From positions 1-60,878 of the forward strand of contig JAKBCS010000011.1 of NCBI GenBank assembly GCA_021807595.1: a stretch of DNA of 60,878 nt, given 5' to 3'. The position numbers and the translations under genes are program-made. Of this stretch, positions 17,407-19,460 are shown one piece after another (the first letter of the stretch is position 1; each line of letters opens with the position of its first letter). The notes under the pieces were generated by a model. That model had not been told where the DNA came from. It did no database searches and saw only the letters and a list, made by a program, of their open reading frames with translations. Source of the stretch: Planctomycetota bacterium. Lineage in GTDB: Bacteria > Planctomycetota > Planctomycetia > Gemmatales > Gemmataceae.

Positions 17407-18117
17407 ATGTGGCAATCCAAGGTCTGCCTCAGCTCTGCTGTTGCTGCTTTGTTCATAATTCTTATCCCGAAGGTTGAAGGCAGCGCGATTACTCCCGATT
17501 CCATTCTCAATCCGCCTGCGGCGGTTAACTCGGCGAGCGGAACCATCGTTCCTGCGCAACAAATGGTGACTACGCAATATAGCGGACTCGGGCTAAGCTT
17601 CACGGCCACGGCGATCTCGCAATTGAAAGGGGTCGCCGTGTGGGCACCCATCAATGATGCGTTCGCCGTCCCGGCAAGTCAGGTCGTCGGTCAGCCGCCT
17701 CCAAACCCTCCGCCGCCGAGCATCGGCTATGGGATGTGGACGGGAGACGGTCAGTTCGTTGTCCCCGGCACGACCGAGAAAACTTCAGTAAGCTCGTTCG
17801 GCTTAGAGATCGTAGGAAGCCGTGGCACGGGAGTGTATGTTTTCAACCGTCAATGGCAGACCATCGGTTTTGCCAACCCGGTGGGCACGGGACCGCACGG
17901 TGGAGAAATCTACACATATAGTGGTGGAAATGCGAGTGCTTTTTCGATTTTTGTACCGATCGCGGATGGAATGCCCTACAACGATTATCCGCCTTGGGGC
18001 ATCGCCGAGATCTCCTTCATCGCCACCCCCGAACCGTCCGCACTCCTACTTGCCGCTCTGGGCTTTCTTGCCTACATTTTATCATTTAGGCTAAAAAGAG
18101 TAGGATTGTCGATATAA
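17407..18117 (+). CDS. PEP-CTERM exported protein
   Basis: A 236-residue protein with an N-terminal signal peptide (about 1-26) and a C-terminal PEP-CTERM sorting signal: TPEPSAL, then a hydrophobic segment (LLAALGFLAYIL) and a basic end (RLKR). Such proteins are processed by an exosortase, which is not encoded here, and delivered to the cell surface or matrix. The middle is Gly/Thr/Pro-rich, probably beta structure, with no recognised catalytic motif. ATG 17407 has GAGGAG about nine bases upstream. It stands alone, converging with the LarA-like gene. Confidence 0.88.
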   Translation: MWQSKVCLSSAVAALFIILIPKVEGSAITPDSILNPPAAVNSASGTIVPAQQMVTTQYSGLGLSFTATAISQLKGVAVWAPINDAFAVPASQVVGQPPPNPPPPSIGYGMWTGDGQFVVPGTTEKTSVSSFGLEIVGSRGTGVYVFNRQWQTIGFANPVGTGPHGGEIYTYSGGNASAFSIFVPIADGMPYNDYPPWGIAEISFIATPEPSALLLAALGFLAYILSFRLKRVGLSI

Positions 18118-18161: not shown

Positions 18162-19361
18162 TCATTCGAGAACGGCAAGCATCTTGTGAGCGTCCGAAAG
18201 GAAGATGCAAGAATCGCTGCGGTCGAGCAATCGCTGCACTTCGCGCGGTTCGTGCAGAGGCGTGGCGAACAGTTCTTCGACCGTGTCGTCTGGAAGGCCG
18301 CTCATTAGATTGATATTCGCCTGGCTTGCCGCGCTGGACCATTGAAGTGCCCAGAGCGTTTCGGGGCCGATGTCGCCTCGCAATCGTTGGTACAGTTGTC
18401 GCGGATCGTCGGACGAGCGGATGATCTCCATCTCGTTTCCAAGTTTCGGATCGGCTTGGGTCAGCAAGACGATGCGTCCGCCCGGTTGCACGACGCGCGC
18501 GGCACAGGACAGCGCTGCGGCCATCGAAGTCAAGGTGTGCCGGGTCGGATCGCCGCTCATACCGGCGACGACGAGATCGGCGGGACGCGCAATCGCATGA
18601 CGCCAACAGGCATCGAGTTGGCGTCGCGCCTCGCGGGCGGCTTGAACGGAGCCTGCAACGACTTGGGCGATCCCGTCGCCCTGGGACTCAATGGCTTGGA
18701 TGTAGAATGGCGCGCCTAACAGCCATGCCGTCTCGGCTGCCGCTCGCCGAGCCGGCCAAGCTTCGTCGCCGGGCGGTTCGAGATATAAGCCAAGGCTCAA
18801 CTGTTGCAAGGTCTCCCGATCGGCGAACGCGGGATAGAGCGCGCCTTCCGCTCCGCTGTAGCCCAAGAGAGGATCGTACCGGATCCCAGACAATGCGACG
18901 ATTTGATCGGCCTCGACCAGAGTGCGATTCAAATAAAGTCGGTCGCCACGATTCGTAGTCGCCAAATAAGCCAGGCGCTTGCGGTCGCTGGGATCAGTGA
19001 TTTCGACGCGAACGTCTTGAAAATCGTCGGGCAATTCGTCGATCCACGTCTGCGGCGACGACGACGGAGTACAGAGCAGAGTCGTCGCTTCCGGGGCCAC
19101 TCCAGCCTCGTTCAGATGTTTCAGCACGGGAACCAATAATTCGACGAGGCGCGGCAATTGCTCGTCGAGAACGATGGCGACGCAATCGTCGGGCGTCAGT
19201 GCCTGGCGGAGAGCGGGATACTCGTGCGGTTGCTCTAACGCAGCGCGAACGGCGGCGGAAGGATCGGTCAACGGATTAGGAGTTTGCGGATGGCTAATCA
19301 GTCTGTTGTCTGCAACCTCGAACTCGAGTTGCTTCCATCCGCGATTTAAGGCCCTACGCAT
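18162..19361 (-). CDS. LarA-like (DUF2088) protein lacking key lactate racemase residues
   Basis: A 399-residue protein of the LarA/DUF2088 family. LarA racemases use a nickel pincer nucleotide bound through a lysine and several histidines. The family framework is present (YLNRTLVEADQIVALSGIRY, GYSGAEGALYPAFADRET, and AGMSGDPTR in the second half). The usual PH...SGGxK segment reads RY...SGAEGA, so the histidine and the lysine (Gly173 here) are missing. The early GxHR motif is also absent (LLCTPSSSP). It is probably not a nickel racemase of the known kind. ATG 19361 has AAGGAG five bases upstream; the longer frame to 19457 overlaps the def promoter. Confidence 0.85.
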   Translation of the reverse strand: MRRALNRGWKQLEFEVADNRLISHPQTPNPLTDPSAAVRAALEQPHEYPALRQALTPDDCVAIVLDEQLPRLVELLVPVLKHLNEAGVAPEATTLLCTPSSSPQTWIDELPDDFQDVRVEITDPSDRKRLAYLATTNRGDRLYLNRTLVEADQIVALSGIRYDPLLGYSGAEGALYPAFADRETLQQLSLGLYLEPPGDEAWPARRAAAETAWLLGAPFYIQAIESQGDGIAQVVAGSVQAAREARRQLDACWRHAIARPADLVVAGMSGDPTRHTLTSMAAALSCAARVVQPGGRIVLLTQADPKLGNEMEIIRSSDDPRQLYQRLRGDIGPETLWALQWSSAASQANINLMSGLPDDTVEELFATPLHEPREVQRLLDRSDSCIFLSDAHKMLAVLE

Positions 19362-19460
19362 TGACTCTCCTTGCCCCGCGTCGAAGAGGGAGAATACGAT
19401 CTCCCTCCATTGTACGCATCCGTTGGACCGAGACACGAGCAAAAGGCGGAACGTCACCCT

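Follow-up and report, generated by a model that had tools for sequence, protein, structure and literature searches.

Members of the LarA/LarAH superfamily are NPN-dependent 2-hydroxyacid racemases and epimerases. Two reports (PMC7583248, PMC11770544) give R75, the cofactor-tethering K184, and the nickel ligand H200 as the NPN-binding residues of LarA, and H108, H174, and K298 (with D72) as the catalytic ones. The former report (Desguin et al. 2020, PMC7583248) describes LarAH groups 12, 13, and 16 as LarA homologues that do not conserve the catalytic and NPN-binding residues and that probably work without NPN. The single-histidine LarA-like enzymes LarA_Bw and LarA_Sp (PDB 9q3j and 9q3k) have Asn at the H174 equivalent, and one of the two was solved NPN-loaded (PMC12611868). 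A second protein family enters the account below as a proposed functional partner, not as a homologue. This is YgfZ/IBA57 (COG0354), a GcvT-like protein that is folate dependent (PMC3223725) and supports [4Fe-4S] enzymes, including MiaB and RimO (PMC10002905).

Here we describe a LarA-like protein, pseudo-LarA, encoded in the window, the whole 60,878-nt stretch of planctomycete DNA that was analyzed. Its gene occupies positions 18162 to 19361, as originally predicted, lies on the minus strand, and encodes 399 aa plus a stop; the plus strand is interrupted by stops over the same interval. The open frame reaches an upstream GTG at 19457, and the starts of the orthologues match the ATG at 19361. 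Lar_N (PF09861) matched the protein with 69.4 bits (E = 3.2e-19; gathering cutoff, 23.3) and was the sole Pfam match at E ≤ 1, the C-terminal domain being recognized via its fold. The top NCBIfam profile, and the closest LarAH profile, was LarAH6 malate racemase at 125 bits compared to an equivalog cutoff of 500, and the closest PDB sequences were the malate racemase Mar2 and a broad-spectrum LarA. An AlphaFold2 model, built on an input alignment of 51 orthologues, had a mean pLDDT of 94.8. This model matched 9eid in Foldseek with an E value of 2.5e-30, all 19 Foldseek matches at E ≤ 0.001 were LarA-type proteins, and VIA-align placed the model on 8ezh, 9eia, and 5huq with Z scores of ∼40 over 390 to 398 residues. 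The matches cover the whole chain, and pseudo-LarA is by fold a true LarA homologue. As modeled, it is a member of the LarA structural superfamily with a complete two-domain fold, which bears out the clear two-domain framework of the original prediction. The closest structure is LarA of Isosphaera pallida (9EIA/9EID; 22% identity to 9eia), and the features shared with the superfamily include, besides the fold and Lar_N, the motifs AD, GysG, and P177.

What separates pseudo-LarA from LarA/LarAH is the active site, where the equivalents of R75, H108, H174, K184, H200, Q295, and K298 are each changed or deleted. First, the site of the DxxR motif (D72/R75) reads EQLP (residues 67 to 70; 19152 to 19163, minus strand, as for all sites below), so that Pro70 stands for R75; the D72 position is taken by Asp66 or Glu67, varying with the alignment. 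Second, the canonical TGxHRP loop with H108, which can be read in the canonical paralogue of the same genome, is shortened to TPSSSPQT (residues 97 to 104; 19050 to 19073) and has no His, matching the reported absence of an early GxHR motif. Third, in the segment RYDPLLGYSGAEGA (residues 161 to 174), Asp163 (18873 to 18875) replaces the catalytic H174, and Gly173 (18843 to 18845) sits opposite the tethering K184 in the alignment, the same Gly-for-Lys change that had been read from the PH...SGGxK segment. Finally, Ser189 (18795 to 18797) replaces the nickel ligand H200, and SMAA (residues 279 to 282; 18516 to 18527) replaces QxxK, with Ser279 for Q295 and Ala282 for K298. Alignments to 34 canonical proteins, whether or not divergent paralogues were included, revealed no His or Lys at shifted positions, and the original prediction of missing cofactor residues is confirmed. 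The canonical set comprised 20 LarAs from the class Planctomycetia and 14 from other parts of the phylum, and D72, R75, H108, H174, K184, H200, Q295, and K298 were all kept in 34 of 34. A further difference was seen at residue 122, which is Thr in this protein and His in ∼87% of its clade and in canonical LarA.

The altered active site is not peculiar to one genome. The 84 pseudo-LarA orthologues represent about 20 families of Planctomycetia and group in a single clade (SH-aLRT, 100) with a long stem of 1.38 changes per site. At the K184 position, the clade has Gly, Ser, Ala, or Thr, with no Lys among the counts listed; at the H174 position, His is found in 2 of 84; the R75 position is Pro in 65 of 84; the H108 column is gapped in 63 of 84; and the H200 position varies. 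Set against 34 of 34 canonical LarAs with every residue in place, this difference is much larger than chance would produce. Some kind of LarA match was present in 284 of 297 sampled Planctomycetia genomes, and in most cases a profile of the clade scored its members at about 190 to 540 bits and canonical LarAs no higher than about 178 bits, the classification being ambiguous for a few genomes. In the genomes sampled from the rest of the phylum, this profile had only lower-scoring matches and no member of the clade was seen, and the 14 best-scoring LarA-like proteins examined from them all keep the residues. On these alignments, loss of NPN cofactor use by the clade is a well-supported reading, and we infer that pseudo-LarA does not bind NPN. 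The clade resembles LarA_Bw and LarA_Sp in having a LarA fold with an altered active site, but those enzymes are the milder case since pseudo-LarA lacks the whole set. It may belong to LarAH groups 12, 13, and 16, which share the absence of these residues and with which it is set side by side by description only; the accessible portion of Desguin et al. 2020 (PMC7583248) reports no ygfZ linkage or class-wide analysis. In nearly every Planctomycetia genome, the genes annotated as "lactate racemase" would include one that is unable to act by the known LarA mechanism.

The gene neighborhood pointed to a possible role. When 15-kb contexts were compared across 19 genomes, the immediate downstream neighbor on the same strand belonged to one family in 10 contexts, compared to 4 contexts for the second most recurrent neighbor family. 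This neighbor is YgfZ/CAF17-like (GCV_T; TIGR03317 at 74.9 bits, cutoff 49). Over the class, about 13 of 20 families have ygfZ as the next gene downstream in the same orientation (f1, f2 at one of five loci, f3, f6, f7, f9, f11, f14, f17, f18, and f21, and, from coordinates, f10 and f13); the linkage was not seen in f4, f5, f8, f12, f15, f19, f20, and most of f2. In the window genome and the rest of its genus, ygfZ is unlinked, lying in the window genome on another contig (C110). Around canonical larA, no ygfZ was found at 20 loci with flanks of about 0.7 to 1.7 kb. The two proteins also tend to be missing together: pseudo-LarA is absent from 6 of 13 genomes without YgfZ compared to about 21 of 284 with YgfZ (Fisher P = 4e-4, or 0.03 after family f8 was collapsed), in counts for which genomes were classified by hand and relatedness was handled only roughly. 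The ygfZ linkage is a new observation: literature searches on LarA with YgfZ, or on DUF2088 with Planctomycetes, returned nothing relevant and no paper on the clade or the link.

Since the cofactor-less form was kept across the whole class, often beside ygfZ, it has probably had another job since long ago. The explanation we favor, with slightly less than even confidence, is that pseudo-LarA derives from an NPN hydroxyacid racemase, lost the cofactor and catalytic set while keeping the fold, and has a non-racemase role in the YgfZ pathway. Its origin from the racemase would predate the radiation of the class Planctomycetia; the whole set would have been lost with the two-domain hinged fold retained; and the protein would have become a non-catalytic partner, or a ligand-binding regulator acting via the old inter-domain cleft, in the folate-dependent YgfZ pathway for the upkeep of [4Fe-4S] enzymes, among them the MiaB/RimO methylthiotransferases. 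The YgfZ-pathway role is a hypothesis drawn from gene linkage and joint absence. That the class has a LarA-derived non-catalytic YgfZ partner in [4Fe-4S] enzyme maintenance known from no other bacterium is a more doubtful proposition. If the favored reading is right, the clade documents deep repurposing of a nickel-pincer enzyme and offers YgfZ/IBA57 a candidate partner that can be put to the test. Both Planctopirus limnophila and Gemmata can be grown in culture, and genetic tools are available in this phylum. The main text of a P. limnophila essential-gene paper (PMC10632474) names neither the pseudo-LarA gene nor ygfZ.

The positions that are conserved in the clade and new relative to canonical LarA bear on whether pseudo-LarA is instead an enzyme that uses another cofactor or no cofactor. 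Its cleft would then be rebuilt around Asp163, an Arg or other polar residue at the K298 position, and further residues specific to the clade, and its substrate would be an organic acid or nucleotide. The fold that bears the cleft is intact, and Asp163 together with the cleft could form a different active site: Asp occupies the H174 position in 62 of 84 members and the Q295 site in 33, Arg occupies the K298 position in 42, and the conservation of E362 is about 0.7. However, no new polar residue is invariant clade-wide, and the more divergent families do not keep Asp163. The new conserved positions are mostly P70, W213, W253, A391, D163, and E362; Asp163 apart, the strongly conserved ones are mostly structural or aromatic (P70, W213, W253, and A391, i.e., Pro, Trp, and Ala), E362 is intermediate, and no complete new catalytic set is visible among them. 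This scarcity of new polar residues at the old active site favors a non-catalytic, repurposed, or ligand-sensing role over another cofactor, and we consider a rebuilt enzyme unlikely, although it is the strongest competitor. Of the two outcomes named in the original prediction, a subfamily with another cofactor or no racemase activity, the second is strongly supported by a class-wide monophyletic clade lacking the NPN and catalytic set, whereas another cofactor found no positive support.

The ygfZ adjacency might also be nothing but inherited gene order, in which case pseudo-LarA would be a non-catalytic protein with an unrelated role. One ancestral pair would explain adjacency in all families retaining it, adjacency is absent in seven of about 20 families, and each protein also occurs alone: YgfZ was not detected in three genomes that have pseudo-LarA (G281, G070, and G279), and at least 17 have YgfZ and no pseudo-LarA. 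Yet other neighbors were reshuffled over the same span, the joint absence is significant, and the intergenic gaps are operon-like, being mostly <65 nt; in four cases, start and stop codons overlap by 4 nt. We therefore judge mere inheritance of the order improbable and retain the YgfZ-pathway reading ahead of it.

The other Lar genes of the window genome raise the question of whether pseudo-LarA still meets NPN, for example as a carrier or regulator of its supply to other LarA paralogues. LarB, LarC, and LarE are all encoded there, and LarC is present in most genomes with the clade. The window genome has four Lar_N proteins, of which pseudo-LarA is the only one without the residues: a canonical LarA on contig C273 keeps the His and Lys positions, and two DUF2088-type proteins on contigs C119 and C251 retain His and Lys at the aligned positions. 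The search for larB, larC, and larE suggested with the original prediction thus recovered all three genes, together with three paralogues whose intact residues explain their presence; NPN is probably made and used in this organism, though not by pseudo-LarA. Pseudo-LarA has none of the NPN contacts R75, K184, and H200, no lar biosynthesis gene is recurrent beside it in the contexts compared, and genome G116 and genus g54 retain pseudo-LarA with no detectable LarC. A carrier or regulator of NPN is therefore a very improbable reading. We did not take the absence of LarC as proof of NPN independence, since g54 and G116 still bear other LarA-like proteins. In g54 (high-completeness genomes G045 and G077), this is a protein with His and Lys (PHEVLGFANHNK), and G116, also a high-completeness genome, has another LarA-like protein; these genomes may encode a LarC that has diverged or may obtain the cofactor by a different route. 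The two DUF2088/Lar_N proteins of the window genome (C119:11647-12087 and C251:25830-26210) are divergent and carry the motifs MGSHGG, KPHT, GK, and HHR/YHR.

A decaying gene, which the lost catalytic residues might suggest, is refuted by class-wide retention, by frames that are intact in nearly all genomes, and by dN/dS values of about 0.06 to 0.2 between close pairs of pseudo-LarA genes, well below 1 and indicating purifying selection. As judged from these sequences, pseudo-LarA is an old maintained protein. In one genome (G022:C147:55100-56213), it is divided between two frames that overlap, apparently through a frameshift or an error in the assembly. Two MAG contigs titled Alphaproteobacteria (VGES01000130.1) and Bacteroidales (JAIXLE010000177.1) bear Gemmataceae-type pseudo-LarA and look mislabeled or misbinned.

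Other neighbors of the gene in the window, namely, metH, a PEP-CTERM protein, and def/fmt/rsmB, were dropped as functional clues, any sharing of them being confined to the nearest species. The PEP-CTERM-type secreted protein is encoded just downstream on the opposite strand (17407 to 18117) and lies beside the gene only in the nearest species. Some of the Gemmataceae loci (e.g., L151, L152, L160, L163, and L164) have divergent upstream genes identified by eye as aldehyde dehydrogenase-like and aminotransferase-like, which were observed at 12 and 10 loci, respectively.
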